Below, in pieces: positions 10,705 through 53,900 of a DNA stretch of 64,000 nt (positions within the stretch are counted from its first letter, which is position 1; each line of letters opens with the position of its first letter). Position numbers and translations under genes: made by a program. Source of the stretch: Actinospica robiniae DSM 44927 (GTDB lineage: Bacteria > Actinomycetota > Actinomycetes > Streptomycetales > Catenulisporaceae); NCBI RefSeq assembly GCF_000504285.1, contig NZ_KI632511.1:1981372-2045371 (forward strand). The letters run 5' to 3'. The notes under the pieces were generated by a model. The model saw only the letters and a program-made list of their open reading frames with translations. It was not told the origin of the DNA and did no database searches.

Positions 10705-11032
10705 CGCGGTTTCTCCAGTCTGCGCTCGGATGGTGCGCCGATGCCGTTTCCGGCCAACTGGAATGAAGTTAAGACGGCCTGCTTTCGGTACTCCTTCCAA
10801 GCCTTATCCATCCGCTATCAACGGTGGATCATCAGAATTCAGATTGCCTCGATCCGGCGCCCGGAGGTCGCGGCGGGGGGTCTCGGACCGATAGCGCGGC
10901 GAAGCCGTTCCGATCGAACGCCGCTGCACACTGCCCATGTCAGGCCCCGGACCACGCCGGCGAATCGGCGGCCGGCCTGGCTGTCGGCAAAAGTGCCGGA
11001 TGGTGAACGGCCGGACTCGGGAGAAGCTCGCA
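10705..11032. promoter_or_regulatory. Divergent promoter region between small peptide gene and NRPS-1
   Basis: Lower in GC than its surroundings (notably about 10740-10850), which suits promoters in such DNA. It must hold the start of the long NRPS-1 operon and of the small peptide gene. The NRPS-1 frame is open back to 10937, but the peptide there is not condensation-domain-like. I see no clear tandem SARP box. Confidence 0.45.
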
Positions 11033-17000: not shown

Positions 17001-20000
17001 TGGCCGCCCGGCTGCCCGCCGCGTTGATGCCGTCCGCGTTCGTGGAGCTGCCGGAGCTGCCGCTCACCGCGCACGGCAAGGTCGACCGCGCCGCGCTGCC
17101 CGCTCCGGTGGCGGACCGCGCCCGGGTGCATCGCAAGCCCGGCACCGCGCTCGAGGAGCTGGTGTGCGGACTGTTCGCGGAGACCCTCGGTCTGCCGGAG
17201 GTCGGCGTCGACGAGGACTTCTTCGTCCTCGGCGGCCACTCGCTGCTCGCGCTGCGACTGACCAACCGCATCCGCGCCGCCATGGAGACGGATCTGCGCA
17301 TCCGCGACCTGTTCGAGTCGCCCACGGCCGAGGGCGTCGCCCGGCGCCTCGAGGCCGAGACGGCCCGCCGCAGCCGGATCGAGCCGATGCCGCGGCCGGA
17401 CCTGCTGCCGCTCTCCTTCGCCCAGCGCCAGCTGCGGTTCCTCTACGAGTTCGAAGGTCCGAGCGCGACCTACAACCTGCCCATCGCGCTGCGCCTCGTG
17501 GGCGCGGTCGACCTCGAGGCGCTGCAGAGCGCGATCGACGACGTCGTCGCCCGGCACGAGGTGCTGCGCACCTGCTACCCCGGCGATCTCGGCGAGCCGC
17601 GCCAGCTCATCCTCAGCCCGGAACGGGCGCGCGTCGTCCTCGAGGTCTGCGAGGTGCCGGCCGGGCAGATCGGCGACCGGCTGCGGCACGAGGCGGAGCG
17701 GCCCTTCGATCTCGCGGCCACTCCCCCGTTCCGCGCCTTGCTGCTGCGCACCGCCCCGGACGCCGCGGTCCTCCTCGCCGTCGTGCACCACATCGCCACC
17801 GACGGCTGGTCGATGGGCGTGCTCCTCAGCGACCTGGGCGAGGCGTACAACGCCCGGCGCCGCGGCCGCGGCCCGCAGTGGGACGCCCTGCCGGTGCAGT
17901 ACGCCGACTTCTCGCTCTGGCAGGCGGCCGAGGTGGACGACGGGCTGGAGTTCTGGCGGACGGAACTGGCCGGGCTGCCCGAGGAGATCCCGCTGCCGCT
18001 GGACCGGCCCCGCCCGGCCCAGCGCGACGGGCGCGGCGGCACGGTCGGCTTCGCGGCCGGGCCGGAGAGCCACCGCAGGCTGGAACAGCTCGGCCGCGAC
18101 CAGCACGCGACCCTGTTCATGGTGCTGCAGACCGCGCTCGTCACCCTGCTGCACACGCACGGCGGCGGCGAGGACATCCCGCTCGGCACCCCGCTGACCG
18201 GTCGCACCGACGCGTGCCTCGAGAACCTCGTCGGCCTGTTCATCAACACCCTGGTCCTGCGCGCGGACACCGGGGGCGACCCCACCTTCCGCGAGCTGCT
18301 CGGCCGGGTGCGCGAGGCCGACCTGCGCGCCTTCGCCCACCAGGACGCCCCCTTCGACCGGCTGGTCGAGCACCTGGCGCCGGCCCGCAACCCGAACCGC
18401 AACCCGCTCTTCCAGGTGATCTTCTCGGTGGAGACCGGTCAGGATCCGGGCCCCGCGTTCGACGGGCTCGACGCGACGCCGCTCGCGGTCCAGGCCGAGG
18501 TGGCCAAGTTCGACCTCACCATCACCTTCCGCCCCCGGTACGGCGCCGACGCCGCCCCCGCGGGCCTGACCGGCGAGGTCAACTACGCATCCGACGTCTT
18601 CGACCGGGCCACGATCGAGGCCCTGGTCGAGCGCCTCAGCACGCTGATCGACGCGATCGGCGCCGACCCGGACGCCCGGCTCGGCGCGCTCGAGATCCTC
18701 CCGGCCGGCGAGCGCGACCGGCTCCTGGCGTGGGGCACCGGCCTCGTCACGGCCGCCGGCCCGCGCAGCGTGGCAGAGCGCTTCGAGCAGCAGGCCGCGC
18801 GCACCCCGGCGGCCGTCGCGGTCGAGTACGACGGCGCAACGGTGACCTACCGCGAGCTCAACCGGCGAGCCAACCGGCTGGCCCGGCTGCTGCGCGGGCA
18901 CGGGGTCGGGCCGGAGGTGTTCGTCGCCGTCGCGATGGACCGCTCGGTCGACCTGCTCGCCGCCTTCCTCGCCACCCTCAAGGCGGGCGGTGCCTACGTG
19001 CCGATCCCGGCCGCGTACCCGCCGCCGCTGGCGCGGGCCGTACTCGACGACGTCAAGCCGGCCGTGGTGCTGACCGACCTCGTCAACGCCGGGCGCGAGG
19101 TCGTGCCCGCAATCGCGGCCACCGGCCTGCCGGTGATCGTGGTCGACGACGCGGACACGGCCCTGCCCGGTGACGCGGCTGACCTCGGCCTGGTGTGTCC
19201 GCCGGATCAGCTCGCGTATGTGATGTTCACCTCGGGGTCCACCGGCACGCCCAAGGGCGTGGCGATCACCCACGGGAACATCGTGGCCCTGGCCGACGAC
19301 GTTCGCTGGCGCAACGGCAATCACGACCGGGTCCTGATGCACTCGCCGCACTCCTTCGACGCGGCCACCTACGAGATGTGGGCGCCGCTGCTGCACGGCG
19401 GGACCGTCGTGCTGATGCCGCCGGGGGCGGTGGACCCGCAGCGCCTGCACCACACGCTCAGCACCGGCCGGGTCACCGGGATGTTCCTGACCACAGCCCT
19501 GTTCGACGTGCTGGTGGCCGACGCGCCGGAGACGCTCTGCCTGGTCCGCGAGGTGTGGACCGGCGGAGAAGGGGTCTCGGTCCGGTCCATGAACCGGGTC
19601 GGACAGCTCTGCCCCGACCTCGCGGTCTTCCACGTGTACGGCCCGACCGAGACCACCGTGTACGCCTTGCACCACGCGGTGCGCGGCAGCGGGTTCACCG
19701 GCACGGTCCCGATCGGCGGTCCGCTGGACAACACAGTCGTCTACGTGCTCGACGATGCCCTGCGGCCGGTGCCCTCGGGCGTGGTCGGAGAGCTGTACAT
19801 CGCCGGCGCCGGGGTGGGCCGCGGCTACGCCGACCGCCCCGGCCTGACCGCCGGCCGCTTCCTGCCCGACCCCTTCGGCGAGCCCGGCTCGCGGATGTAC
19901 CGCACCGGCGACCTGGTGCGCTGGAACGCGCGCGGCGAGATCGAGTTCGTCGGCCGCGCCGACGGCCAGATCAAGCTGCGCGGCTTCCGGATCGAGCTCG

Positions 20001-21907
20001 GCGAGATCGAGGCGGCCCTGGGTCTGCACCCCGCGGTCGGCCGGCCCTTCGTCATGCTGCGCGAGGACCGGCCGGGCGACAAGCGCATCGTCGCCTACGC
20101 GGTCCCCGCCGAGCCGGACGCCGGCCTTGACCTGGCGGACCTGCGCGAGTTCCTCGCCGTGCGGCTGCCCGGCTACATGATGCCCTCGGCGTTCGTGGTG
20201 CTGCCGGAGCTGCCGCTGACCCCGCATCAGAAGATCGACCACAGGGCGCTGCCCGCGCCGGCCGCCGAAGCGCCCCGGACGCACCGCAGCCCTCGTACTC
20301 CGGTCGAAGAAGTGGTCTGCGGCCTGTTCGCGGAGACGCTGGGGCTCGCGCAGGTCGGCGTGGACCAGGACTTCTTCGCCCTCGGCGGCCACTCGCTGCT
20401 GGCTCTGCGCCTGACCAACCGGATCCGCGCCGCGTTCGCCGGCGAGCTGAGCATCAGGGACCTGTTCGAAGCGCCGACCGTCGAGGGCATCGCCAAGCGC
20501 CTGGAAGCCGCCGCCGCGAGGCAGGAGATCGAACTCGGCGTCCTGCCGCCGGTGGCGCGGGCCGAGACGCGGCCCGAGGTCCTTCCGCTCTCCTCGGCGC
20601 AGCTGCGGCTGTGGATCCTCAACCGCTTCGAGGGTCCGAGCGCCACCTACAACGTGCCGTTCGCGGTGCGGCTGACCGGCCCGCTCGACCCGCGGGCCCT
20701 GCAGGCGGCGCTGAACGACCTCGTCGCCCGGCACGAGACGCTGCGCACGCTCTACCCGGACCTGTTCGGCGAGCCGCGGCAGCTGATCCTGGCCCCCGAG
20801 GACGCGCTGATCGACCTCGAGGACTGCGAGGTCGCGGCCGAGCAGGTCGAGGCCAGGATCGAGCAGGAGATCGCGCACCGCTTCACCCTGGCCTCCGAGC
20901 AGCCAGTCAAGGCCCTGCTGCTGCGTTCGGCGCCGCAGGACGCGACGCTGCTCCTGCTGATCCACCACATCGCCACCGACGGCTGGTCCACCGGGCCGCT
21001 GACCCGCGACCTGAGCACCGCGTACAACGCGCGGCTGCTCGGGCGGGCGCCGGACTGGCCGGCCCTGCCCCTCCAGTACGCGGACTTCGCCCTGTGGCAG
21101 CGCGACGCCGCGGCCGAGGGACTCGAGCATCAGCTCGAGTTCTGGGCCGGGGAACTGGCCGGGCTGCCCGAGGAGATCCCGCTGCCGTTGGACCGGCCCC
21201 GCCCGGCCCAACGCGACGGACGCGGCGCCGTGGTCGGCTTCGAGCTGCGACCCGAACTCGGCGCCGCGCTGCGGGAGCTGGCCGGGCAGAACCAGGCGAC
21301 GCTGCTGATGGTGCTGCACGCCGGCGTGGCCGCGCTGCTCGACCAGTGCGGCGCCGGCTCCGACATCCCGCTCGGCACGCCGGTCACGGGACGCGGCGAC
21401 GAGGCTCTGGAAGACCTCGTCGGGTTCTTCGTCAACACCCTGGTGCTGCGCGCCGACACCAGTGGCGACCCCGGCTTCCGGGAGCTGCTCGGCCGTGTCC
21501 GCGAAGCCGACCTGCGTGCCTTCGCGCACCAGGAGGCCCCGTTCGACCAGCTGGTCGAGCGGCTGGCGCCGACCCGCACGGCGCACCGCAATCCGCTCTT
21601 CCAGGTCGCCTTCTCCCTCGTCCCCGACCTCGAGCAGGAGGACCCGCTGCGCTTCCAGGGCCTTGAGTCCCGAGCCCTGCCGATCGCGCCGAACACAGCG
21701 AAGTTCGATCTCACCGTCACCTTCCGGCCCGGCGGCGCGGCGGACGACGCGCTCTACGGCGAGATCGACTACTGCACCGACATCTTCGACCCGGCCACGG
21801 TGCACGGGCTGGCCCGACGGCTCGTCGGCCTGCTCGAGGCGGCCGCGGCACAACCCGAAACCCCGATCGGGCGCCTCGGCGCCCTGGTGAACCAGGAAGG
21901 CGAGTAA
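11033..21907 (+). CDS. NRPS-1: C-A-T-C-A-T-C-A-T-C
   Basis: About 3624 residues, three full modules plus a C-terminal condensation domain. C1 (about 10-430) has VYPLSALQ and HHILVDD. A1 (about 460-975), T1 (GGHSL near 1010), C2 (1066-1500, HHIATDGWS), A2 (about 1525-2020), T2 (near 2063), C3 (2120-2550), A3 (about 2575-3075), T3 (near 3115), C4 (about 3180-3624). No epimerase, methyltransferase or TE is present. Manual pocket readings: A1 DAYYWGVVFK, A2 DAWTMCGIAK, A3 DAYFWGVVYK; I do not assign substrates. The ATG at 11033 follows GGGAGA. C4 has no A-T on the same protein and must act with NRPS-2, encoded two genes on. C1 could accept from PKS-2 of the other operon. Confidence 0.96.
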
Positions 21908-21909
21908 TC

Positions 21910-22134
21910 ATGCCCAGTCCCTTCGAGAACCAGACCAAGCAGTTCAACGTCCTGATCAACGCCGAGGACCAGCACTCGCTCTGGCCGCAGGACTATGCCG
22001 TGCCGGCCGGCTGGGAGCCCGTCTCAAGCGGCACCCTCGCCGAGTGCACCGCCTACGTGGACGCGCACTGGACCGACATGCGCCCGCGCTCGCTCAAGCT
22101 GGCCCAGGCCGCAGCGAACGGGAGCCGTCGGTGA
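21910..22134 (+). CDS. MbtH-like protein
   Basis: A 74-residue MbtH-family chaperone. The [10 protein letters not shown] segment and the C-terminal WTDMRP are the family hallmarks, and the length is standard. These proteins bind and activate NRPS adenylation domains. It begins 2 bases after the NRPS-1 stop and its stop overlaps the GTG start of NRPS-2 (GTGA), so it is translationally embedded between the C and A halves of one module. A second copy heads the minus-strand operon at 53910-54131. Confidence 0.97.
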
Positions 22135-24110
22135 GCCTGACGACCACGCAGACCGTCCGCGAGGACCCGGACCTGGACGGGTACCGCCGCGAGTGGGCGG
22201 ACTCGGTCACCCCGGTCCCGGACGCGACCCTGCCGCGCCTGCTGGATCTGCGCATCGCGCAGACCCCGGACGCCGTCGCGGTGGAGTCCGGGGAGCAGAC
22301 GCTCAGCTACGCGCAGCTCGGTGCGCACGTCGACCGGCTGGCCCGCCGGCTGCTCGACGCGGGCGTCGCCCCCGGCGACCCGGTCGCGGTGCTGCTGCCG
22401 CGCTCGACGCACCTGGTGGTCGCGCTGCTGGCGATCGCCCGCTGCGGAGCCGTGTACGTCCCGCTCGACGCCCGCGACCCGCTCGCCCGGATGCGGGGCG
22501 TGCTGGCGAACGCGGGGTGCGAACACCTGGTCGTGGACCACGCGACGCAGGACCATGAGGTCGCCGCCGGCCACAAGCCGGTCCGGGCCGACCTCGAGGG
22601 GTCCGCAACGCCGGGCGGATCAGCGGCCGAACACGTTCCGGATCTGACACAGGGCCCTGACTCGCTCGTCTACGTCATCCACACCTCCGGGTCCACCGGA
22701 GCGCCCAAGGGCGTCGCGGTCAGCCACCGCAACGTGGCCGCGTTCGCCGCCGACCGGATCTGGCGCAACGGCAACCACGAGCGGGTGCTGCTGCACTCGC
22801 CGCACGCCTTCGACGCCAACACCTACGAGCTCTGGGTGCCGCTGCTCGGCGGCGGCACGGTGGTGCTCGCCCCGGACCGGCTGGACGTTCCGCTGATGCG
22901 GAAGCTGGCGGGTACCGGCCGGATCACGGCGGCCTTCCTGACCATCGGCCTGTTCAACGCCCTGGCCGCGGCCGACCCGACCTGCTTCCGCGGGCTGCGC
23001 GAGGTGTGGACGGGCGGCGACGTGGTCTCCCCGGAAGCTCTGGCCAAGGTGCGCGACGCCAACCCGGGCATCACCGTGTACGGGGTCTACGGCCCCACCG
23101 AGACCACCACGTACGCCACCTGCTACCGGGTCGGCGCGCACCTCGATCCGGCGCAGAGCGTCCCGATCGGCAAGCCGATGGACAACACCCGCGGCTACGT
23201 GCTCGACGAGCGCCTGGAACTGGTCGCTCCGGGCGAGGCGGGCGAACTGTTCCTGGCCGGCGCGGGTGTGGCCCGCGGCTATCTCAACCAGCCGGGCCTG
23301 ACCGCGCAGCGCTTCGTCGCAGACCCCTTCGGGGCGCCGGGCGAGCGCATGTACGCGACCGGCGACCTGGTCCGGCGGGAGGCGGACGGCAACCTCCGCT
23401 TCGTCGGACGGGCCGACGGCCAGGTGAAGATCAACGGCTTCCGGATCGAGGTCGGCGAGATCGAGGCGGCGCTGGTCGGGCACCCGGCCGTGCGCGAGGC
23501 CGTCGCGATCGCGTCCAAGACCGCGGACGGCGGCGGCCGGATCCACGCCTACGTGGTGACGGCGCCGTCCACGGCGCTCGACAGTGAACTGATACGTGAG
23601 CACCTGTCCGCGCGGCTGCCCGGCTACATGGTCCCGGACGAGTACTCCTTCCTGCCGGAACTGCCGCTGACGCCGAACGGCAAGGTCGATCGCAGACGAC
23701 TCGCGGCCACCCCGCCGCCCGTGCGGCAGCCGGCTCCGGTCGGGCCGGTCGCGACCGGCCCGACCAGCGTGGCCGAGCCCCGGCCGTCCCTCGACGAGAC
23801 CGAGGCGAAGGTCGCCGCGCTGTGGAGCCTGGTGCTCGGCGTGGAGCAGATCGGGCTCGACGACAACTTCTTCGAGTGCGGCGGCACCTCGCTCAAGCTG
23901 ATCGGCCTGCATGCGCGGCTGTGCGCCGAGTTCGGCGTGGAGCTGCCGATCCAGCGCCTGTTCGAGATATCGACCATCCGGGCCATCGCCCGCCACCTCG
24001 CGCCCGACACGGCCTCGGCGAACTCGGCCGCGGCCGAGCGGCGCGCCGACGTGGACGAGAGGGCCGCGGCCCGCCGCGAGCAGATCCGGCGCAGGGCGGA
24101 ATGGAGATGA
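22131..24110 (+). CDS. NRPS-2: A-T didomain
   Basis: About 659 residues, an adenylation domain (about 30-535) and a thiolation domain ([13 protein letters not shown] near residue 578) with no condensation domain. It completes the module begun by the C-terminal condensation domain of NRPS-1. My pocket reading is DAYFWGVTYK, close to A1 and A3 of NRPS-1, and the core stretch [19 protein letters not shown] is shared with them. So related residues may be used three times. The GTG at 22131 overlaps the MbtH stop and follows GGGAG. The tail after the T domain is rich in arginine and glutamate and could be a docking helix towards PKS-1, whose ATG overlaps this stop. Confidence 0.95.
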
Positions 24111-27100
24111 GCATGGATACCGACGGCAGGATCGCCGTGACCGGCATGGCCGTACGGCTGCCCGGCGCGGCGGACCTGGCCCGCTACTGGAGGCTGCTGC
24201 AGGCCGGCGCGGAGGGCATCACCCGGCACGGCGAGGCCGAGCTGCTCGCCGCGGGCTACGACGCGCAGACCATCCGGAGCAGCGAGTTCGTCCCGGCCGG
24301 CGGCGCGCTGCCGGCGGCGCGCGCGTTCGACTGGTCCTACTTCGGCTACAGCCGGACCGACGCCGCCCTGATCGACCCGCAGCAGCGCGTCTTCCTGCAA
24401 TGCGCGGCCGAGGCCCTGGACGACGCCGGCATCGACCCGACCCGCTTCGCCGGCTGGATCGGCGTATACGGGGGCAGCGACAGTCCCGAGGACGGGCTCG
24501 ACGACCTGATCGACCCGCTGCTGCGGGCCATCGGACGCAACCAGGACTTCCTGGCCACGCGGGTCGCCTACAAGCTCGGGCTGCGCGGCCCGGCGTTCAC
24601 CGTGCAGACGGCGTGTTCGACCTCGCTGACCGCGGTGCACCTGGCCGTGCAGAGCCTGCTCTCCTACGAGACGGACGCGGCGCTGGCCGGCGGGGTCGGC
24701 CTGGCCTCCGCGGGGAGGATGGGCTACACGTACGTGGAGGGCGGCAGTCTCTCCCCGGACGGGCACTGCCGCTCGTTCGACGCCCGCGCCCTCGGCACGG
24801 TGCCCAGCGAGGGCGTCGGGATGGTGGTGCTGCGGCGGCTGGAGGACGCGCTGCGCGACGGCGACCGCATCGCCGCCGTCATCCTCGGGTCGGCCGTCAA
24901 CAACGACGCCGGGGACAAGATCGGGTTCACCGCCCCCTCGGTCTCCGGGCAGCGCGAGGCGATCCTGCTGGCGCAGAAGGTGAGCGGCGTCGACCCGGCG
25001 GACCTCGGCTACATCGAAGCCCACGGCACCGCCACCCCGATGGGCGACCCGATCGAGGTGCAGGCGCTGACCGACGCGTTCCGCCGCTCCACCGACGCCA
25101 CCGGCTACTGCGGGCTCGGCTCGGTCAAGAGCAACATCGGCCACACCGGGGCCGCGGCGGGCGTCGCCGGGCTGATCAAGACGGTGCTGATGCTCGAGCA
25201 CCGGGAACTGGTGCCCTCGCTGCACTTCACCGAGCCGAACCCGCGGCTGCAGCTCGAGGACTCGCCGTTCCGGGTGACGACCAGGCGGACGCCCTGGCCC
25301 GAGCGGGGCACGCCGATGGCGGCGGTCAGCGCCTTCGGTCTCGGCGGCACCAACGCGCACGTGATCCTGCAGGCGCCCCCTTCGCGCGACCGCCCGGCCG
25401 GGCGCCGCACCGCGCGCGTGCTCGGCCTGTCCGCGATGACCGGCACCAGCCTCGACCGGATGCGCGGGAACCTCGCCGACCATCTCGAGGAGCACGGCGA
25501 GACAGAGCTCGGCGACGCGACGCAGACCCTGGCCCGCCGCCGCCAGTACGAGCACCGGGTCGCGGTGGTCGCCGCGGAGCCGGGTGAGGCCGCCGAGGCG
25601 CTGCGCGTCGCGGCGCCGTCCCCGGGCAAGCGCGCGCTCGGCAAGGTGGCGTTCCTCTTCCCCGGCCACGGGGTCCTGGACCACGCCGCGGGGGCCGCCG
25701 CCTACCGGCTACTGCCGACCTTCCGGACCTGCTTCGACGAGATGGCCGACGCCTTTCAGGCCGGCCCCGGCGTCGACCTGGCCCCGGTCGTGGTGCCGGG
25801 GGCCGGCGACGCGGAGTGGTTCTCGCCCCCGGCGCACCAGCACGCGGGCCTGCTGGCCCTGGGCTACGCGCTGGCCAAGCAGCTGATCGAGTGGCGCGTG
25901 TGCCCAGCGGGCATGATCGGCAACAGTATCGGCGAGTGCGTCGCCGCCACCGTGGCCGGGCTCTGGACGCCCGCGGAGGCCGCGGCCGTGGTGCATACCC
26001 GGGCCGTGGCGGCGCAGAACACGAAGCCGGGCCGGATGATCGCGGTCAAGGCTCCGGTGGAGGAGGTCCTCCGGCGTATCGCCGGGTTCGACGGGGTGGG
26101 CGTCGCGGTGGCCGGACCGGGCACCGCGGTCATCTCAGGGATCGAAGCGGCCATGGACGCGCTCACGCTCACCGACGCGCTGGACGGCCTCGACCTCACC
26201 GTGCTCGATGCCCCGGCGGCCGGCCATTCCGCCGCGATGGAGCCCGCGGCGCGGGAACTGCGCGCGGCGCTCGCGCGGGTGACCACCCGGGAGCCGGGGC
26301 TGCCCTTCGTCTCCAACCTGACCGGGCAGTGGGCCCGCCCGGAGGCCGTGCTCGGCGCCGACTACTGGGCGGACCAGCTGTGCCGCACGGTACAGCTGGA
26401 GGCCGGTATCGCGACCCTGATCGATGAGGGCTGCGACACCTTCATCGAGCTCGGCCCCGGCACGTCGATGTGCGGATCGCTGCGCCGGCACCGGGACTGG
26501 GATCCGGAGCGCTTCGTGCTGCCGATGCTCGGCCGGGCCGCCGAGGACCGCGACCGCAGCCTGCTGCGGGCGATCGGCGCCCTGTGGGAGCGCGGCGCCG
26601 AGATCGACCTGGCCGCGGTGACCGGCGACAGTCGGGCACCGGTGTGCTCGCTGCCTCCGTACGCCTTCGACGCACAGGACCCGCGAGCGGACTGGGTCTT
26701 GGCCGCGCCGGCCGAGAAATCGGCGGATTCCGGTGCACCGCACCAGGACGACGTGGCCGGGCTGCCGACCCTGGAGCTCCTGTGGCGCCAGGCGCTCGGC
26801 GTCTCCTCGGTCCGCGCGGAGGACGATTTCTTCGCCCTCGGCGGGGAGTCGCTCATGGCGGTCAACCTCGTCAACCAGATCCGCAGGCACTGGGGCGTGC
26901 GGGTGACCGCCGCCGAGTTCCTCAAGAGCCCGACCTTCGCCACCCTGGTCCGGCTGGCCGGCCCGGCCGCGGCGCAGGCGCGCACCCGCGCGGAGGCGGC
27001 CACCTCGGCTGCGTCGACCGGTCTGGTCACCTTGCGCGAGGGCACCGGGCGACCGGTGTTCTTCGCCGCCGACGTCCTCGGCACCTCCTCCAGCTATCTG

Positions 27101-27769
27101 GTGCTGGCCGACCTGCTCGAGACGGACCGCCCGGTCTGCGGGCTCGAACAGACCGAGCGCCCGGGCCGTTTCCCGCGACTCGAGCGGCTCGCTGCCGAAC
27201 AGGTCGCGCTCGCCCGACAGGCCCAGCCCGAAGGCCCGTACACCCTGGCCGGCTGGTCCTTCGGAGCCGTACTCGCGCATGAGATGGCCCGTCAGCTGAT
27301 CGAGGCCGGACAGAGCGTGGACCTGCTCGTCTGCCTCGACGGACAGGTCCGGGGACGGCGCGGCCGGCCGCTCGGCGCCAGCCCCGCGGTGCTGCGCGAC
27401 GCCGTCACCCTGCAGGTGGGCGTGGCACTCGGCACCGGGCCGCTCGGCGCCCGCATCCGCAGACTGCCCGAGCTGCGCCGCCGCTTCCTGGCCAACGCCG
27501 GCGCCCTGCTGCGCTACCGGCCGAAGCCGGCGGCCTGCCGCACTGTGCTGTTCAAGGCGGAACCGGGCGACGCCGGGCGCAGCGCGGCGATCGAACGCGG
27601 CCTCGCCTCGCTCTACCGGGAGGTCCGGGTCGAGCCGGTGGCCGGCGACCACTGGTCCATGCTCGCCGAACCGCACGCCCGCGGCCTCGCCGCCCGGATC
27701 AGTGCCCTGCTTCCGCATGACACCCCGCGCCCCGCCGCGGCCACCGCCGCGTCCACGACAGGAGATTGA
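24107..27769 (+). CDS. PKS-1: KS-AT-T-TE terminal module
   Basis: About 1220 residues, a type I polyketide module with thioesterase. KS (about 5-425) has cysteine 170 in TACSTSL, histidine 306 in [12 protein letters not shown] and histidine 346 in SNIGH. AT (about 510-800) has GNSIGE, serine 607, with asparagine where GHSxGE normally has histidine; the specificity segment reads AAGHS rather than HAFHS or YASHS. T has serine 915 in GGESL. TE (about 980-1210) has serine 1051 in GWSFG and histidine 1182 in GDHWSML. There is no ketoreductase, so a beta-keto product is released unless reduced in trans. AAGH resembles XAGH motifs of larger extenders, which fits the CCR/KAS III/dehydrogenase genes downstream. 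The start overlaps the NRPS-2 stop (ATGA); ATG 24113 is an alternative with its own GGAG. Confidence 0.95.
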
Positions 27770-27770: not shown

Positions 27771-28343
27771 ATGACCGTCACCACCGAGATCCGCGAGATC
27801 ACCGACCTCGAGGCGCTGGCCGCGACCGCGCACCCGATCCGCCGACGCCTGCTCGACTTCCTCGACGTCGAAGGCGAGATGACCGCCACGGCGATGGCCG
27901 AGAGCTCCGGGCAGTCGGTGCGCACCATCGAGCGGCACCTGCACCTGCTCGAGGAGAGCCGGCTGGTCGAGCAGAGCGCCGCCGACGAGGACGGGGAGCG
28001 GCCGTGGCGCCGGTCCGCGCCCGGGATGCGCACGCAGACCAACGATCTGGCCGACGACGCCGTCACCCGCGCGGTGATCTTCGCCATGCTCTGCGTCACC
28101 CGGGAGCGCCACGCCGGCTTCATGCGGGAGTGGACCGAGGCCCGGGAAACCTTCGGCCCGGACTGGAAGGTCAGCGGCTTCGTCGCGGACTGCTGGCTGC
28201 GGCTGAGCCCGGCCGAGCTGGTGCAGGTGCGCGGCGAGTTCGCCGACATCTTCGAGCGCTGGTCCACCCGGGACGTGCCGGACGACGGCGTGGACCGCCG
28301 CCCGGTGACCTTCTTCGCCCAGGCCGTGCGGGCCCAGCCGTGA
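27771..28343 (+). CDS. Winged-helix (ArsR-like) transcriptional regulator
   Basis: A 190-residue protein with an N-terminal winged helix-turn-helix of the ArsR-like type (about residues 12-75): AHPIRRRLLDFL, then ATAMAESSGQSVRTIERHLHLL. The helical C-terminal part resembles the partner region seen in many actinobacterial ArsR-like regulators. There is no CxC metal-binding motif. The ATG follows AGGAG, one base after the PKS-1 stop. It sits in the middle of the biosynthetic operon and probably tunes it or the exporter; the target is unknown. Confidence 0.85.
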   Translation: MTVTTEIREITDLEALAATAHPIRRRLLDFLDVEGEMTATAMAESSGQSVRTIERHLHLLEESRLVEQSAADEDGERPWRRSAPGMRTQTNDLADDAVTRAVIFAMLCVTRERHAGFMREWTEARETFGPDWKVSGFVADCWLRLSPAELVQVRGEFADIFERWSTRDVPDDGVDRRPVTFFAQAVRAQP

Positions 28344-29338
28344 CCCGGCCGCCCGCCGACGACACCCGCCCCTCCGTCCGCCCCCTTCACGAGATTGCCG
28401 GTGATCCCATGCGCGACCTCATCTCCCTGGCCGACCTGACTCCGACCGAACTCGACACCCTGGTCCGGCGCGCGGTGCGCTTCGGCGGCCCGGAGCCGGT
28501 GGCCAAAACACTGGCCGGCCGCCGCGTCGCCACCTTCTTCAGCAAGACCTCCACCCGCACCCGCACCTCGTTCTGGGCCGGGGCCGTGCGGCTCGGCGCC
28601 GACGTGATCACCTACGGCCCGAACGAGCTGCAGCTGAGCACCGGAGAAACCCTGGAGGACACCGCGCGCGTCCTCGGCGAATACGTGGACGCACTGGTCA
28701 TCCGCACCAACGGCGACGTCGGCGAGATGCGCCGGCTGGCCTCCTGCGACAACCTCGCCGTCGTCAATGCCCTGAGCTCCGACGAGCACCCCACCCAGGC
28801 GATCGCCGACCTGGCCACGCTTCTCGAGCACTTCGGCTCGCTCGACGGTCTGCACGTGCTGTGCGTCGGCGAGGGCAACAGCAGCGCCGTCGCGCTCGCC
28901 CTGGCCGCCGCCCGCACCCCCGGCTTCCGGGTCACCCTCGTGTGCCCGCCCGGCTACGGCGTGGACAAGCAGATCCTGGACAAGGTCGCCGAGATCTCCG
29001 AGGGCCGGGCACTGGTCGAGCAGCACGAGAGCTTCGACGAGGTGCGCCGCCCGGTGGACGCCGTCTACACCAGCCGCTGGCAGACCATGGGCGTGTCGAA
29101 GCCGGACCCCAACTGGCTCTGGGCCTTCCGCGACTACCGGGTGAGCACCGGGCTGCTCGAGCGCTTCAGCGGGCCGGAGACCGTCTTCCTGCACGACCTG
29201 CCCGCCGTCCGCGGCCAGGAGGTCGACGACGAGGTGCTCGACGGCCCGCGCAGCGTGGCCTGGCGGCAGGCCCACCACAAGATGACCGCCGCCATGGCCG
29301 TCCTGGAGTGGTGCGTCACCGGCGGGGAGCAGGAGTGA
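28340..29338 (+). CDS. Ornithine/aspartate carbamoyltransferase homologue, probable tailoring enzyme
   Basis: About 332 residues from the GTG that overlaps the upstream stop; a start at ATG 28409 (309 residues) matches the family length better. The carbamoyl-phosphate site STRTRTSF (serine near residue 71) and HPTQ are intact. The OTC ornithine loop HCLP reads HDLP here, replacing the key cysteine with aspartate, and the usual SMG loop is altered (SRWQTMG). This points to a substrate other than ornithine. In viomycin-type pathways a homologue carbamoylates a diaminopropionate-derived amine. Here 2,3-diaminobutyrate, free or in the peptide, is the attractive acceptor (inference). It is translationally coupled on both sides, to the regulator and to the GHMP kinase. 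Confidence 0.85.
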   Translation: MTRPPADDTRPSVRPLHEIAGDPMRDLISLADLTPTELDTLVRRAVRFGGPEPVAKTLAGRRVATFFSKTSTRTRTSFWAGAVRLGADVITYGPNELQLSTGETLEDTARVLGEYVDALVIRTNGDVGEMRRLASCDNLAVVNALSSDEHPTQAIADLATLLEHFGSLDGLHVLCVGEGNSSAVALALAAARTPGFRVTLVCPPGYGVDKQILDKVAEISEGRALVEQHESFDEVRRPVDAVYTSRWQTMGVSKPDPNWLWAFRDYRVSTGLLERFSGPETVFLHDLPAVRGQEVDDEVLDGPRSVAWRQAHHKMTAAMAVLEWCVTGGEQE

Positions 29339-30243
29339 ACCGCACCCGGACCACGGCGCGGCGCACCGGCACCGCGACCTCGCCCATCCACCACGGCGAA
29401 ATCCTGCAGGGCGCGTTCCGGGTGCACGGCCGGATCCAGCGCGGGCTGGTGACCATCCCGTGCGAGCTGTACTGGTCCACCGCCGCGTTCACCCCGGAGC
29501 CCGGCGGCGAGGTCACCGTGCTGCCGGAGTGGCGCGGCAAGGCCCGCCAGGCCGCCGAACTGACCCTGCGTGAGCTCGAGCCGCTCGTCGGCGAGGGGCT
29601 CGGCGGCACGCTGAGCGTCTGCAGCGACGTGCCGCTCGGGCGCGGCTTCGGCTCCTCCACCAGCGACGTGCTCGCCGCGATCCGGGCGGTCGCCGACGCC
29701 TTCGACGTCCGGTTGCCGCGGGAGACCGTGGCCCGGCTCGCGGTGGCGGCGGAGACCGCGTCCGACTCGCTGATGTTCGACCAGAGCGCGGTGCTCTTCG
29801 CCCACCGCGAGGGCGCGCTCATCGAGGACTTCGGCGCGCGGCTGCCGGCCATGCACGTGCTGGGCTTCGGCACCGGGCTGGCGGTCGACACCGTCGGCTT
29901 CCTGCCCGCCCGCTACACCGAGCGGGAACTCGACTGCTTCGACGAGCTGCGCGTCAGGCTGCGCACGGCCGTCCGCTCCGGAGACGTCGCGCGGATCGGC
30001 GAGATCGCCACCGTCAGCACCCGCATCAACCAGAGCCATCTGCCGATCCCGCGGCTCGAGCAGGTGTGTGAGGCGGCCGCCGAGGCCGGCGCCGCCGGCG
30101 TGCACACCGCGCACAGCGGGGACATCGCCGGGCTGCTCTTCGACCTGCGCGACCCCGACCTGTCCTACCGGCTCAAGCTCGCCGGGAAGCTGCTACGCGA
30201 CATCGACTACGAGGAGCAGTGGGGCTTCGACACCGAGCCCTGA
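29335..30243 (+). CDS. GHMP kinase, PduX-like L-threonine kinase
   Basis: A 302-residue GHMP-family kinase. The N-terminal HHGEILQGAF resembles the GELLQG start of PduX, the L-threonine kinase of cobalamin synthesis. The ATP loop is PLGRGFGSSTSD (from about residue 100), and ETASDSLMFDQ resembles the PduX segment EPTDSTLF. The reaction would be ATP-dependent phosphorylation of threonine to O-phosphothreonine. Its place in a natural product operon, with a cysteine-synthase-like enzyme and an argininosuccinate-lyase homologue in the cluster, fits activation of threonine for beta-replacement to 2,3-diaminobutyrate rather than cobalamin synthesis. The GTG at 29335 overlaps the preceding stop and follows GGGGAGCAG. 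Confidence 0.85.
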   Translation: MNRTRTTARRTGTATSPIHHGEILQGAFRVHGRIQRGLVTIPCELYWSTAAFTPEPGGEVTVLPEWRGKARQAAELTLRELEPLVGEGLGGTLSVCSDVPLGRGFGSSTSDVLAAIRAVADAFDVRLPRETVARLAVAAETASDSLMFDQSAVLFAHREGALIEDFGARLPAMHVLGFGTGLAVDTVGFLPARYTERELDCFDELRVRLRTAVRSGDVARIGEIATVSTRINQSHLPIPRLEQVCEAAAEAGAAGVHTAHSGDIAGLLFDLRDPDLSYRLKLAGKLLRDIDYEEQWGFDTEP

Positions 30244-30361
30244 GCCGTCCCCGCCCGCACGCGACGACTTCGACCACCGAGTCCGAGTCCGCGCCACCGA
30301 GATTTCGAACTCCCACCTTCCCTCCCGTTGGGCGCCCCCGCCGCGCCCGGAAAGGATCACC

Positions 30362-30409
30362 GTGTCCTGCGAAACGAACGACTTGCGTGCCCGGCAGGTG
30401 CGCCGATGA
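30362..30409 (+). CDS. Possible 15-codon leader ORF upstream of the exporter
   Basis: A GTG preceded by GGAAAGGA opens a 15-residue frame (MSCETNDLRARQVRR) whose TGA overlaps the ATG of the MFS gene as ATGA. The ribosome site and overlap suggest translational coupling. I know no family for the peptide, and it could be chance. Confidence 0.4.
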   Translation: MSCETNDLRARQVRR

Positions 30410-31743
30410 GCGCGAACGCCGCGGCCCCGCTGCGCCGCACCGGCTTCCGGCTTCTCGTCGGCGGCCAACTCGCCTCGAACATCGGCGACGCCTTCTACGC
30501 CGTGGCACTGCCCTGGTACGTCCTGTCGGCGCACGGCGGCATGCTGATGCTCGGCCTCATCCTGGTCGCCTACGGCGTCCCGCGCACCGTGCTGCTGTCC
30601 GTCGGCGGGCTCGCGGCCGACCGGTGGGGACCGTGGAGCGCCATGATGAGCGCCGACGCCGTGCGCGCGCTCTCCCTGGTCGGGCTGGCCGTGGCCGCGC
30701 ACAGCGGCCCGCCCCGGCTCTGGATCCTGATTCCGATCGCGGTGGTCGTCGGCGCCGGCGAGGGCTTCTTCCTGCCGGGTTCGTTCGCGATCGTCCCCGC
30801 CCTGCTGCCGGACGAGGAACTCCAGGCCGGCAACGCGCTCGCCTCCAGCGGCACCGAACTCGCCGGCTTCGTCGGCCCGGCTCTCGGCGGCGCGCTGGTG
30901 GCCCTGGCCGGAGCGACCTTCGCCTTCGGTTTCGACGCCGCGACCTTCGTCCTGTCCGGCTTGACACTGCTCGGCGTCCGGGTGCTCCAGCGCAAGAGCG
31001 TGGCGGCTCCCGACGTCGCCGGGGCCGAGGTGACGGCGGCCGACCCCGCAGTGACCACGGCCGGCGTCACCGAGCAGCCCGCCACCTCTACGTGGCAGGT
31101 CCTGCGCGCCGAGCCCGTCGTGCTGATGCTGCTCCTGCTCACCGTCGTCGCCAACCTCGGCTCCGGAGGTGTCAGCCAGGTCGCACTGGCCGCCTTCGCC
31201 CAAGACAGACTCCACGTCAGCGCGACCGGCTACGGCGCGCTGCTGGCCGCGATCGCTGGCGGTGCGCTGTTCGGCGCCGTGGCGGCCGGACAGGTGCGCC
31301 GCGCCCGCCGGCCGGCGATCCTCGGCTCGGCCTCGTTCCTGCTGTGCGCCCTCGCCCTCGGGCTCGTCCCGTACCTCGGCGGCCCGATCGCGGCCGGCGC
31401 GGCGCTGGCGGTGTTCGGCATCGGCTACGGCTTCGGCAACATCATCATGCTGACGACCTTCCAGCGCTGGGCCCCGCCGGCCCTCATCGGCCGGCTGACC
31501 GGGCTGCTGATGCTGGCCAGCTTCGGGGTCTTCCCGCTCGCCGCGCTCGCCGCCGGCCTGGTGGCGCAGGACGTGAGCACCGTCGCCTACTTCCCGATCG
31601 CGGCCGGGCTGATGGGCCTGGCCGTCCTGGCCGGGCTGGTGCAGCGCCGCTGGCGCGGCTTCGGCGCCGACGCCGACGCAGACGCCTCGCCGAACACCGA
31701 TCAGGCCGCGGGGCTGCCCGAGCCGGAGCTGAGCGCCGTCTGA
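30406..31743 (+). CDS. MFS transporter, probable product exporter
   Basis: About 445 residues with roughly twelve hydrophobic segments and the major facilitator loop GLAADRWG between segments 2 and 3. It begins near RRTGFRLLVGGQLASNIGDAF (an MFS segment-1 pattern of efflux proteins) and ends in a short acidic, aspartate/alanine-rich tail. It belongs to the drug-efflux-like branch, so export of the peptide and self-resistance are the likely roles. The ATG at 30406 has GGCAGGTG upstream and overlaps a small leader frame. The CCR gene follows after 34 bases. Confidence 0.9.
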   Translation: MSANAAAPLRRTGFRLLVGGQLASNIGDAFYAVALPWYVLSAHGGMLMLGLILVAYGVPRTVLLSVGGLAADRWGPWSAMMSADAVRALSLVGLAVAAHSGPPRLWILIPIAVVVGAGEGFFLPGSFAIVPALLPDEELQAGNALASSGTELAGFVGPALGGALVALAGATFAFGFDAATFVLSGLTLLGVRVLQRKSVAAPDVAGAEVTAADPAVTTAGVTEQPATSTWQVLRAEPVVLMLLLLTVVANLGSGGVSQVALAAFAQDRLHVSATGYGALLAAIAGGALFGAVAAGQVRRARRPAILGSASFLLCALALGLVPYLGGPIAAGAALAVFGIGYGFGNIIMLTTFQRWAPPALIGRLTGLLMLASFGVFPLAALAAGLVAQDVSTVAYFPIAAGLMGLAVLAGLVQRRWRGFGADADADASPNTDQAAGLPEPELSAV

Positions 31744-36610: not shown

Positions 36611-39600
36611 TCAGGCGCCCGCGTCGCGCGATTCGGGTCCAGCCGCCTCGAACTCGTCCAGGAGCGCGGCGAGCAGGTCGCCCGCGGCGGAGGCCTCGGC
36701 GACCAGCCGGTCGGCTAGTTCGCGCAGCGGGATGGGCTCGAGCAGCAGCGCGAGCGGGGCCTCGAGGCCGAACTCCTCGCGAAGACGACCGACCAGGTGC
36801 ACGGCGGTGAGCGACTCGCCGCCGGCGGCCAGGTAAGACAGCCGACGGTCGTCGGGTTCTGCCACGCCCAGGGTCTCCCGCAGCAACGCCGCGATCCGAT
36901 CTGCCGGCGTGCCTGGTTCGGCGGGCTGCGGCACCTCGGCCAACCGGGCGCCTGGCCCCTGTGCCTCGCTGCTCACTGCCACAGATGTCAGCGCCCGCAG
37001 GGTCATCGCGCCGTGCGACGCACCGGCGAACGGGTACGTCGGCAGGTGCACTCGCCGGCCCTCCTCCCCCAGCGCGCTCCACTCGATCCGCCGGCCGCGA
37101 CTCCACAGCTCGCCGACCGCCCGCAGGAGGTCGCGGGGCTCGTCGCCGCCGCGCCCGAGCGTGGCCAGGACGTGCGTCCCCGGCCGGCTGCGGCGCACGT
37201 GCCCGCTGAGGGCCACGCCCGGGCCGACCTCGAGCACCATTGCGGCCGGGTGCGCGGCTTGGGCGGCGGCCATCGCCGCGCCGAAGAGCACCGGCCCGCG
37301 GATCTGCTGCGCCCACATGCGCGGGTCAGTGGCCTGATCGGCGCTCGCCCACGCTCCGGTGACGGTCGAGACGTAGCGCGGCGAGGATTGATCGGCCGCA
37401 TGCAGCGTCACCTGCGCGGCGATGCGCGCGAACTCCTCGACCACGCCGTCCATCAGCGACGAGTGGAAGCCGTACTGCACGTTCAGGTCGCGGTGACTGA
37501 TGCCGCGCGAGTCGAGCACGCCGGCCAGCGAACGCACCTTCGCGGCGTCGCCGGATACGACGCACGCGTCCGGGCCGTTGGCCGCCGCGATGTCGATGTC
37601 CGCTGTCAGCAGCGGACGCACCTGCTCCTCGCCGGCGAACACGGCGAGCATCGCGCCCGGTTCGGTGGCCGACATCAGGCGACCGCGCTCGGCGACGAGC
37701 TGGAGTGCGTCGTCGAGGTCGAGTACGCCCGCGAGGCATGCTGCGGTGTACTCGCCGATGCTGTGGCCGACCGTCGCCGCCGGTTCGATGGCGAGTTCGC
37801 GCAGCAGCACGGCGGTGGCGTACTCGACGCTGACGATGGTCGGCTGCCAGTAGTCGGTGCGGCCGAGGATGTCCGTGACCGGGTTTCCGTGCTGCGGCGC
37901 CCACGAGCGCGGGTCGATGCCGTGGCTCGCCGTCAGGATCCGCGCGCAGCGGTCCATCGCGTCGCGGAAGGCGCTGTGCTGCGCGTATAGCTCGCGGCCC
38001 ATGCCGCCGTATTGACTTGCCTGGCCTGGGAAGACGAACACGCATCCGTACGAATCAGTGTCCTCATCGACTGACACCGGCTGATAGCGTGCGCTCGCGG
38101 CCGACGCCCGGATCGCGTCGACCGCCTCGGCCCGGTCTGCGGCGAGGACGTATCCGCGCGCTGCCAGCGGCAATCGGCTGACCTGCAGCGTGTGGGCGAC
38201 GTCGGCGAGGCGCAGCCGAGGATCCGCGGAGATGGCCTCGGCGAGGCTTGCTGCGAGCGTCGCGGCTTGCTCGGATGTGCGCGCGGAGATCGGCAGGAGG
38301 CTGACGTGGCCGGAGGGCGCGCTCTCGCTGCCCTGGCCGCTGTCCGCGGCACGCGGTGCTTCCTCCAGGATCACGTGCACGTTGCTGCCGCCGAGCCCGA
38401 CTGAGCTGACGCCGGCCCGGCGCGGGGCAGCGCCGTCGCTCGGCCACGCCGCCGGCTCGGTGGCCAGGCGCAGCCCGGCCTGAGCGAGCTTCAGCTCCGG
38501 GTTGGGCGCGGCGACCCCGGGCAGCGGGACGATCGTACGATGCTGCAGCATCAGCACTGTCTTGATCAGGCCCGCGATACCGGCGGCGGCGTCGAGGTGG
38601 CCGATGTTCGCCTTCACCGAGCCGATAGTGATGCCGGTGCCCGCGTCCGAATAGGCCGCGGCGGTGGCGGCGACCTCGATCCGGTCGCCGAGCGCGGTGG
38701 CTGTGCCGTGCATCTCGATATAGCCGACGCTGCCCGGCTCGACGCCGGCTGCCGCCAGGGCCTCGCTCATCGCGGCTATCTGGCCCTCGACGCCGGGAGC
38801 GGTGAATCCGATCTTCGCGCTGCCGTCGTTGGTCAGGGCCGAACCCCGGATGACGGCGCGCACCGGATCACCGTCGTCGAGCGCGTCTTCGAGGCGGCGC
38901 AGCATGACGAGGCCGGCACCGTTGCCGCGCACGGTGCCGTCCGCGTCGGCGGCGAAGGGGCGGCAGCGGCCGTCGCGCGAAGTGATGCCGCCGCTCTGGT
39001 ACAGGTAGCCCTCGCGGCGCAGGTGGTCCACGGCCACGCCGCCGGCCAGCGCCGCGTCGCACTCACCTAGCAGCAGCGCCTGCACGGCCACGTGCACCGC
39101 CGTCAACGAGGTCGAACACGCCGTCTGCACCGCCATGCTGGGGCCGTCGAGGCCGAGCCGGTAGGAGATCCAGGAGGCGAGGAAGTCCTTGTCCGTCAGC
39201 AGTCTGATGTTGAGCGCGCCGAGGTCCCCGGCCAGGCCGCGGTCGACCGCGGCGGCGATCATATGCTCGGTGGAGCCACCGCCGACGTACACGCCGGTGC
39301 GCAGCGGCACGGCCCGCGGGTCGTAGCCGGCGTCTTCGAGAGCGGACCATGCGGTCTGCAGCAGCAGCCGATGCTGCGGGTCGAGCGCCGCGGCCTGCGG
39401 CAGCGTGAAGCCGAACAGTTCGGCCTCGAAGCGGTCGGCGTCCTCGAGGTAGCCCTTGCTCGGTACGTACGCGGGGTCTGCGGCCTCGGCCGGGTCGAGC
39501 CCGTCGGCGGCGAGTTCCTGCGGAGTGAAGTCGCGCAGGGAGCACACGCCGTCGCGCAGGTTCGTCCAGTACTCGGCCAGGTCGGCGGCGCCGGGGAATC

Positions 39601-39670
39601 GGCCGCTCATACCGACGACGGCGACGGCGCGCTCGGGGATCTCGGGCTCGGCTGCGGCGTGGGCGTTCAC
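36611..39670 (-). CDS. PKS-2: KS-AT-T module without thioesterase
   Basis: A 1019-residue type I PKS module. KS (about 14-430) has cysteine 185 in TACSTSL, with MHGTATALGDRIE and ANIGH for the two histidines. AT (about 545-835) has GHSIGEY, serine 637, and YGFHSS at the specificity position, closest to the malonyl HAFH type. T has serine 953 in GGESL. There is no KR, DH, ER or TE, so the chain keeps a beta-keto group and must be handed on. The GTG at 39670 follows AAGGAAGG on the minus strand and lies 15 bases after the NRPS-5 stop. It is the last gene of the right operon; the acceptor could be the first C domain of NRPS-1. Confidence 0.95.
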   Translation of the reverse strand: MNAHAAAEPEIPERAVAVVGMSGRFPGAADLAEYWTNLRDGVCSLRDFTPQELAADGLDPAEAADPAYVPSKGYLEDADRFEAELFGFTLPQAAALDPQHRLLLQTAWSALEDAGYDPRAVPLRTGVYVGGGSTEHMIAAAVDRGLAGDLGALNIRLLTDKDFLASWISYRLGLDGPSMAVQTACSTSLTAVHVAVQALLLGECDAALAGGVAVDHLRREGYLYQSGGITSRDGRCRPFAADADGTVRGNGAGLVMLRRLEDALDDGDPVRAVIRGSALTNDGSAKIGFTAPGVEGQIAAMSEALAAAGVEPGSVGYIEMHGTATALGDRIEVAATAAAYSDAGTGITIGSVKANIGHLDAAAGIAGLIKTVLMLQHRTIVPLPGVAAPNPELKLAQAGLRLATEPAAWPSDGAAPRRAGVSSVGLGGSNVHVILEEAPRAADSGQGSESAPSGHVSLLPISARTSEQAATLAASLAEAISADPRLRLADVAHTLQVSRLPLAARGYVLAADRAEAVDAIRASAASARYQPVSVDEDTDSYGCVFVFPGQASQYGGMGRELYAQHSAFRDAMDRCARILTASHGIDPRSWAPQHGNPVTDILGRTDYWQPTIVSVEYATAVLLRELAIEPAATVGHSIGEYTAACLAGVLDLDDALQLVAERGRLMSATEPGAMLAVFAGEEQVRPLLTADIDIAAANGPDACVVSGDAAKVRSLAGVLDSRGISHRDLNVQYGFHSSLMDGVVEEFARIAAQVTLHAADQSSPRYVSTVTGAWASADQATDPRMWAQQIRGPVLFGAAMAAAQAAHPAAMVLEVGPGVALSGHVRRSRPGTHVLATLGRGGDEPRDLLRAVGELWSRGRRIEWSALGEEGRRVHLPTYPFAGASHGAMTLRALTSVAVSSEAQGPGARLAEVPQPAEPGTPADRIAALLRETLGVAEPDDRRLSYLAAGGESLTAVHLVGRLREEFGLEAPLALLLEPIPLRELADRLVAEASAAGDLLAALLDEFEAAGPESRDAGA

Positions 39671-39685
39671 AGGGTGGCCTTCCTT

Positions 39686-42600: not shown

Positions 42601-42916
42601 CTGCCGCCTGCTCGACAACGGTTTGCGCGATCGCGTCGACCGGCACGTCGCGCAGCACCGAACACACCGACGGCACTTCCTCGCGCACGATCTGCACGAG
42701 CGTGTCGCCCTCCGCGCGGAACACCGTGCGCAGGGCTTCATGCCGGCCCACCACCTCGTCCACGGCGGCGGTAAACGCCAGCGTGTCGAAGGGTCCTTTC
42801 ACATCGTAACCCACGTACATCGAGTACTGTGCACTACCGGGCGCGAGGCGGTCGAGGACGAGCAGCCGGCCCTGCGCGGGCGTCACCGGGAATACGTACT
42901 CTGTGCTCTCGGACAT
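39686..42916 (-). CDS. NRPS-5: C-A-T module
   Basis: A 1076-residue single module. C (about 10-430) has HHAVADGWS near residue 139; A (about 460-940) has HTSGSTGMPKAVG, NAYGPTE and YRTGDLG; T has GGDSVRLL near residue 990. My pocket reading is DIALVGAVCK, which I do not assign. The start at 42916 is 3 bases after the NRPS-4 stop. An alanine/arginine-rich tail follows the T domain and may be a linker to the PKS-2 ketosynthase. Because NRPS-4 ends in its own C domain, two C domains meet at this protein boundary, an unusual arrangement. Confidence 0.95.
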   Translation of the reverse strand: MSESTEYVFPVTPAQGRLLVLDRLAPGSAQYSMYVGYDVKGPFDTLAFTAAVDEVVGRHEALRTVFRAEGDTLVQIVREEVPSVCSVLRDVPVDAIAQTVVEQAAAPFDLEHGPLFRAVVFEVDDGTRRVLLVAHHAVADGWSLGIIVRELAVCYRRLREGAAPDLPEPGLQYGDFAVWYAERLAAGDFAPQVDYWSDRLADAPPVLPLPTDLPRPPMRTPLGGHVLTELPESTSAALAQLGRDLGTTLTSVLLAAFGVFLGRLSGRSDVVVGLPVAGRDRPDLHELVGMLVNTVGLRIEIDSRLTFQQLAAQTSRSLVEARANQDAPFDAVVARVAPARALDHDPVYQAVFAFDDLDTLDLDLAGAHVRRMGLFLDVAKFDFMAQAERRGERLSIRLVYRSELFSAGTITRWAGLFQTLLAELAADGGGRPVRAADWLTARDRESLLDLAVGPRVEVPEVSVAELISRQVRERPNARALVTEESVLSYAELDARAAQIAAGLRAHGVGPGVIVGLCIPRGQALPLAVLGVLKAGAAYLPLEPEYPAERLALLIADAGASRVIADPSTSASVRAGGAQVLLLSEVIAAADESPAVEACASPDDLAYVIHTSGSTGMPKAVGISQRSLVDYAVTRAEVFGLDHRDRVLNAGSFSFDISVATLFTAWAVGAELHLSAPGERIGAPLLARLRDSEITMTLLLPSVVAALPCSPEDLPALRTLVLGAEPLPPAVVREWARGRRLFNAYGPTEATVCATVAELGPEDAVDIGRPLPNTRVYVLDDALRPVPIGVVGEIYLAGPGLARGYIGRSALTAERFVADPYAAVAGSRMYRTGDLGRYMSSGRLEILGRTDDQVKVRGYRIEPGEIEAVLAEHPGIARATVVARAEAGDEPRLVGYAEPSEEASVTEYELRDWLTRRLPAHLVPAVIVLLERLPTTVSGKVDKAALPAPAYQRPEQARAYAAPRTDVERRIAAVWQEILRIDRAGIHDGFFELGGDSVRLLRVHTRLTRPVDDDPPLEVELVDLFAHPTIGALAAHLDRAAAEPRARAADPGARGATRRDRLDVLAARSRHRPAPGA

Positions 42917-42919
42917 CGG

Positions 42920-48732: not shown

Positions 48733-48743
48733 GGTTCGCTTCC

Positions 48744-53900
<5,157 letters not shown>

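Follow-up and report, generated by a model that had tools for sequence, protein, structure and literature searches.

The window, by which we mean the whole 64,000-nucleotide stretch of Actinospica robiniae DNA that was analyzed, carries a carbamoyltransferase gene between a regulator and a kinase, along with peptide synthetase and polyketide synthase genes on both strands. Its features, including the motifs and residues of the carbamoyltransferase, are as follows.

6622..8112, forward: argininosuccinate-lyase-like protein (TIGR00838 210.2 bits, below the 279.5 cut-off; Pfam Lyase_1)
8132..10369, forward: SbnA-like PLP enzyme fused to an ATP-grasp domain, 745 aa (Pfam PALP, ATP-grasp_4, LAL_C2)
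10937..21907, forward: peptide synthetase with 4 condensation, 3 adenylation and 3 carrier domains
22044..24110, forward: peptide synthetase module, adenylation plus carrier, code DAYFWGVTY
24107..27769, forward: polyketide synthase module with a C-terminal thioesterase
27771..28343, forward: helix-turn-helix regulator, immediately 5' of the carbamoyltransferase (Pfam HTH_20, 36.6 bits)
28409..29338, forward: carbamoyltransferase of the HDLP type, 309 aa (alternative start GTG 28340)
28550..28567, forward: STRTRT, carbamoyl-phosphate site, residues 48-53, intact
28787..28798, forward: HPTQ, carbamoyl-phosphate site, residues 127-130, intact
28880..28882, forward: Ser158, second-substrate residue, aligned with Asn159 of the L-2,3-diaminopropionate (Dap) transcarbamylase DPTCase and with E. 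coli OTCase Asn167
29072..29092, forward: SRWQTMG, 240s loop by alignment, residues 222-228; Ser222 at its start aligns with DPTCase Thr211 and OTCase Asp231
29192..29203, forward: HDLP, residues 262-265, replacing HCLP
29335..30243, forward: GHMP-family kinase, proposed L-threonine kinase (Pfam GHMP_kinases_N 50.9 bits, above cut-off)
30328..31743, forward: MFS exporter (Pfam MFS_1, 110.8 bits)
36611..53900, reverse: divergent peptide synthetase/polyketide synthase operon with a luciferase-like monooxygenase; first module code DVQYMGGIL

The position of the reverse-strand operon suggests that it belongs to the same pathway. Genes for a crotonyl-CoA carboxylase/reductase (560.7 bits against a cut-off of 378.55), a KASIII and a 3-hydroxybutyryl-CoA dehydrogenase at 31778-35003 probably supply an unusual extender unit, and a large imperfect inverted repeat at 35263-36526 (arms of 166, 141, 77 and 49 nt, 84-92% complementary, with further inverted repeats nested inside) separates this acyl-CoA operon from the minus-strand polyketide synthase. 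Farther along, proteins encoded at 54410-56875 (reverse) and 59937-61655 (forward) have nearly identical C-terminal repeat halves; the former also has an Rv2525c-like glycoside-hydrolase domain, and the latter has a different N-terminal part.

The sequence-only reading had placed the carbamoyltransferase at 28340-29338. That forward-strand frame is indeed open and encodes an OTCase-fold protein, but conservation begins at ATG 28409; beginning at GTG 28340 would add 23 residues and overlap the stop of the upstream gene. The same reading had described an intact carbamoyl-phosphate site, HDLP in place of HCLP, and changes in the ornithine (SMG) loop, and STRTRT, HPTQ, HDLP and SRWQTMG can all be read in the translation. 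HDLP is present in 78 of the 84 rows of our alignment, whose relatives are the best 80 of 226, and the remaining 6 rows are the outgroup. Given that the same residues recur in 23/23 rows of the clade described below, and HDLP in all 78 non-outgroup rows, a sequencing slip is excluded as the source of the variant.

Both transcarbamylase domains were found by Pfam (132.5 and 105.1 bits), and STRTRT, HPTQ and HDLP correspond to SxRT, HPxQ and HxLP, the motifs given in PMC4581275, in the passages used here, as defining the superfamily. An AlphaFold2 model built with 42 aligned sequences as input reached a pLDDT of 93.4 and a pTM of 0.93. In structure comparison with VIA-align, its best matches were ornithine carbamoyltransferases, among them 4nf2 (Z 39.4, 1.9 Å, 300 residues) and 2i6u (Z 39.1, 2.2 Å, 303 residues), a structure containing carbamoyl phosphate and norvaline; the protein is 26-38% identical to the solved OTCases listed. 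These best matches are unknotted, unlike the AOTCase, SOTCase and YgeW group with its proline-rich loop and long 120s loop. The protein thus shares the fold and carbamoyl-phosphate site of ArgF, but DxxxSMG, Asn167 and HCLP are each replaced. It scored below the NCBIfam cut-offs for ornithine carbamoyltransferase (236.8 against 280.85 bits), aspartate carbamoyltransferase (150.2 against 236.95, with an RWQTMG loop lacking the ER of RxQxER) and putrescine carbamoyltransferase (162.1 against 500). Taken together, the pocket residues and model cut-offs would rule out ornithine or aspartate as the substrate. YgeW, which according to a passage of a 2025 paper (PMC12507026) cleaves the 2-ureido group from a ureido Dap compound, was set aside as a functional parallel because its models matched weakly (45.7-48 bits against cut-offs of 453-500).

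The combination of HDLP with an altered SMG loop, which had been regarded as unusual, proved to be an already published mark, and we dropped HDLP as a novelty. Shi, Allewell and Tuchman (2015, PMC4581275), in the passages used here, give HDLP for HCLP as marking both Dap transcarbamylases, known from zwittermicin A and viomycin, and the 2,4-diaminobutyrate (2,4-Dab) enzyme from padanamide; the two are told apart by their loops, (T/S)RWQTTG in the former and TRWQSMG in the latter. A passage of a 2018 review (PMC6022934) assigns the two loop motifs the opposite way. The same A. robiniae genome has a second HDLP carbamoyltransferase with a TTRWQTTG loop (L005:9509-10456, reverse, with L008:13233-15229, reverse; 53-54% identity), which sits in another peptide-synthetase cluster beside genes that pass the cut-offs for SbnA (417.8 bits, cut-off 349.95) and SbnB (387.3 bits, cut-off 326.9), and this locus is likely a cluster converting Dap to ureidoalanine. 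Since a TTRWQTTG enzyme here neighbors SbnA and SbnB, we favor the 2015 assignment.

Compared with the DPTCases (VioL of viomycin and the capreomycin and zwittermicin A enzymes), the window enzyme has a common fold, carbamoyl-phosphate motifs, HDLP and RWQT loop, and both reside in peptide-synthetase clusters. However, its SRWQTMG loop differs from (T/S)RWQTTG at one residue, and it has S222 for T, M227 for T, S158 for N and V267 for H, as well as W56. The partners also differ, with SbnA and SbnB accompanying DPTCases and a kinase, an SbnA-like enzyme, an ATP-grasp domain and a lyase accompanying the window clade; the SbnA-like part in the window falls below the SbnA cut-off (TIGR03945, 232.7 against 349.95 bits), and of the window genes that were scanned with profiles, none was of the SbnB type. 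The padanamide DBTCase, compared by its published motif rather than its full sequence, has HDLP and the loop M in common with the window enzyme but differs at two loop residues, S222 and T226. With a loop and partners that match neither described HDLP substrate class, what appears to be new is the indicated substrate.

Scanning a single genome for each species returned 226 relatives. Of the best 80, five had 63-73% identity (from Streptomyces murinus, S. griseofuscus, S. malaysiense, Catenulispora pinistramenti and an actinomycete MAG), 71 were further HDLP enzymes with 43-56% identity, and four were distant rows resembling ATCases or OTCases. In an 84-row tree that included these 80, the window protein and its five close relatives were monophyletic (support 100/100) and L020, L034 and L050 branched next (nine together, 99/93), with several deeper forks weakly supported. 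We compared the full set of 23 clade rows, in which L014 and L126 are one gene, with 69 Dap-type rows (68 loci drawn from the best 80 of 226, plus the paralogue from the same genome). Position 158 was Ser in 23/23 clade rows and Asn in 68/69 Dap-type and 3/3 near-outgroup rows, while position 222 was Ser in 23/23 clade rows and Thr in 69/69 Dap-type rows. Met227 and Val267 were clade-wide, against Thr and His, respectively, in all 69 Dap-type rows, and Tyr92, Asn101, Leu122 and Trp56 also set the whole clade apart.

The three near-outgroup enzymes already have Tyr92, Asn101, Met227 and Val267 but retain Asn158, Thr222 and Met122. One of them, L020, which has a TMG loop and HDLPAVRG, still has neighbors above the SbnA and SbnB cut-offs, and the switch to a kinase cassette therefore tracks the four remaining residues, Ser158, Ser222, Leu122 and Trp56, which are invariant in 23/23 clade rows. 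Passages in the text and Table 1 of PMC4581275 suggest Asn159, Thr160, Thr211, Arg212 and Asp250 as second-substrate residues of the Dap enzyme. Judging from the alignment, the smaller Ser158 and Ser222, replacing Asn and Thr, may free space for a methyl group on carbon 3, although smaller pocket residues could suit some other substrate instead.

In the window, the GTG start of the kinase overlaps the stop of the carbamoyltransferase, and a distance of 18-22 kb separates the latter from the genes for the SbnA-like enzyme and the lyase. The kinase matched no curated threonine-kinase model and its closest solved structures are mevalonate kinases (E 4e-4); with the GHMP fold alone identified, its role as an L-threonine kinase is a proposal. 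The ATP-grasp part of the fusion matches PRK02186. Kinase, SbnA-like, ATP-grasp and lyase parts occur together in the window, L014, the MAG (L015), S. griseofuscus, S. malaysiense and the genomes G010, G132 and G306. The most compact arrangement spans 7.5 kb in C. pinistramenti and runs carbamoyltransferase, kinase, SbnA-like gene, ATP-grasp-lyase fusion (PRK02186 733.7 bits, above the 625 cut-off) and exporter. In the MAG, the cassette is oriented toward the carbamoyltransferase with the kinase at 4.2 kb, and the S. griseofuscus cassette is about 22 kb off, with a peptide synthetase and a methylaspartate-mutase-like pair in between (E part under the NCBIfam cut-off, 154.4 against 390.1 bits, and over that of Pfam, 269.3 against 26.6). 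The S. malaysiense cassette is on a different contig from the carbamoyltransferase, as are the ATP-grasp and lyase parts in S. murinus, whose sole kinase match is distant (38%). No SbnB-type gene was found with the clade cassette; S. griseofuscus has an ornithine-cyclodeaminase-family gene at a distance of 6.2 kb from its carbamoyltransferase, which reached 136.3 bits against the SbnB cut-off of 326.9. The same species has a second cassette (L111:9093-13992) of lyase, kinase and SbnA-ATP-grasp fusion, and none of the genes called in that 20 kb read encodes a carbamoyltransferase. The window lyase and fusion are closest to this second cassette (56-61%), and the cassette in the window has a mosaic appearance.

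Among the 71 non-clade HDLP loci in the best 80 of 226, the kinase adjoined none within flanks of at most 10 kb, many of them shorter, and SbnA-like and ornithine-cyclodeaminase-family matches occurred together at 13. The 2,3-diaminobutyrate genes of the friulimicin dabABC type encode a kinase, a cysteine-synthase-like enzyme and a lyase, and the window cassette resembles this set while adding an ATP-grasp domain and the carbamoyltransferase. A gausemycin-type cluster, whose product contains 2,3-diaminobutyrate, likewise has cysteine-synthase and argininosuccinate-lyase genes according to a passage of PMC12471526, and a passage of PMC10714638 derives the 2,3-diaminobutyrate of uridyl peptides from threonine and ammonia.

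We surveyed 391 genomes of the host's order for the clade enzyme (E ≤1e-100) and the kinase (E ≤1e-60) and found them in 18 and 26 genomes, respectively. The kinase was present in 18/18 genomes with the clade enzyme, compared to 8/373 of the others (Fisher p 3e-25, a value that treats related genomes as independent). Any HDLP-type match (E ≤1e-65) was found in 72 genomes. Of these, 54 lacked a clade member and served as a control with the Dap-type enzyme only; a single one of them (G258) had the kinase, on a separate contig from that enzyme. Identity to the window protein was bimodal: the 17 clade genomes besides the host's own gave 67-73%, and the rest 46-56%. Enzyme and kinase shared a contig in 13/18 genomes, the remaining 5 being split across draft contigs; stop and start overlap in the window, whereas the two genes are 102-108 bp apart in two g2-genus genomes and about 24 kb apart in ten others. 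Because genus g4 accounts for 15/18 clade genomes, with the one spacing of about 24 kb in the ten where both genes are on one contig, the genome count inflates the independent evidence. The eight genomes with the kinase but without the clade enzyme indicate that the cassette also has another use.

An adenylation code also recurs in the synthetases of these clusters. The three adenylation domains of the 10937..21907 synthetase read DAYYWGVVF, DAWTMCGIA and DAYFWGVVY, and the code D[AS]YYWG[AV]VF occurred in 6/7 clade clusters: those of the window, S. griseofuscus, and G010, G132, G306 and G361, four of the 17 other clade genomes in the survey. The seventh cluster, in the MAG, is truncated at a contig edge. 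Using regular expressions, which can miss domains, we found the wider pattern D.Y[YF]WG in 0/103 adenylation domains at 49 non-clade HDLP loci, and in none of 12 domains near the kinase in kinase-only genomes (3/8 of which yielded domains); D[AS]YYWG[AV]VF thus occurred in 0/115 domains of the comparison loci overall. It resembles DAYWWGGTF, a valine code, and it may mark the loader of a ureido residue or merely the common ancestry of the clusters. Another candidate loader, a Ser-Trp-Asp domain with the code DALQMAGGF in the streptomycete and MAG clusters (nearest window code DVQYMGGIL, 50-55% identity), was weakened by its absence from the 39.6 kb of the G010 cluster that were read.

Given these patterns, we propose, with a probability of about 0.65, that the window enzyme is an HDLP-class, OTCase-fold transcarbamylase that converts carbamoyl phosphate and L-2,3-diaminobutyrate to 2-amino-3-ureidobutyrate for the peptide synthetase. 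The sequence-only reading had suggested this product, and it stands as the reading that best fits the clade-wide kinase co-occurrence and the pocket residues, although we infer the substrate, along with the regiochemistry and the chemistry of the cassette, from sequence. In the proposed route, the GHMP kinase would make O-phospho-L-threonine, the SbnA-like enzyme would swap the phosphate for an amino donor, possibly aspartate, and the lyase would free fumarate to leave 2,3-diaminobutyrate; this scheme does not account for the ATP-grasp domain. The carbamoyltransferase, a trimer by homology with its substrate shifted to L-2,3-diaminobutyrate, would then modify the 3-amino group, and the peptide synthetase would load the resulting 2-amino-3-ureidobutyrate. 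The Dap-enzyme model in passages of PMC4581275 sets the Asp of HDLP by the 2-amino group and the Arg of RWQ by the carboxylate, roles that Asp263 and Arg223 may fill here.

An ordinary DPTCase making ureidoalanine, with a kinase that supplies phosphoserine or serves some other step, would be the conservative alternative in that DPTCases are the closest characterized class by motif and the near outgroup L020 has true SbnA and SbnB as neighbors. Primary metabolism already provides O-phosphoserine, on which SbnA acts in Dap synthesis, and a Dap route therefore needs no kinase, whereas a dedicated small-molecule kinase is sensible for threonine. Since the clade cassette also comes without an SbnB-type gene (the S. 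griseofuscus candidate falling far under the cut-off) and the pocket changes are confined to the clade, we consider this alternative unlikely. The acceptor could instead be a 2,3-diaminobutyryl residue bound to a carrier or peptide, as in one viomycin scheme that puts VioL after synthetase loading (a passage of PMC10880069). We regard this as quite unlikely, given that the carbamoyltransferase gene overlaps that of the kinase that would begin free 2,3-diaminobutyrate synthesis and that passages of two reviews (PMC4581275 and PMC6022934) name free Dap as the acceptor.

The remaining alternatives are weaker still. In the biosynthesis of 2,4-diaminobutyrate, the amino acid arises from aspartate semialdehyde by transamination, a route requiring no part of this cassette, and a 2,4-Dab transcarbamylase as in padanamide is thus very improbable despite the loop M common to the two enzymes. 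A second or resistance ornithine carbamoyltransferase producing citrulline is scarcely credible: the fold and the 26-38% identity speak for it, but OTCase Asp231, Asn167 and HCLP are missing, the score lies below the OTCase model cut-off, and the genome encodes an ordinary ArgF with SMG and HCLP elsewhere, as well as an ATCase.

Our search of openly readable papers under six spellings, with subscription literature mostly outside its reach, did not find 2-amino-3-ureidobutyrate. The open literature likewise yielded no carbamoyltransferase acting on 2,3-diaminobutyrate, and nothing useful on a threonine kinase or phosphothreonine with 2,3-diaminobutyric acid, or on a carbamoyltransferase with glutamate mutase. 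The clade enzyme is found in at least three lineages, the window's genus, Catenulispora and Streptomyces. We tentatively suggest, at somewhat less than even odds, that a dedicated pathway converting threonine to 2-amino-3-ureidobutyrate is present in at least these three lineages and an actinomycete MAG, where it would feed undescribed ureido peptides made by synthetases that share the code D[AS]YYWG[AV]VF. If the proposal is true, the HDLP transcarbamylases would gain a third diamino-acid substrate, with two residues named that may discriminate Dap from 2,3-diaminobutyrate, and the pairing of carbamoyltransferase with GHMP kinase would provide a genome-mining handle for peptides that contain a beta-methyl ureido residue.
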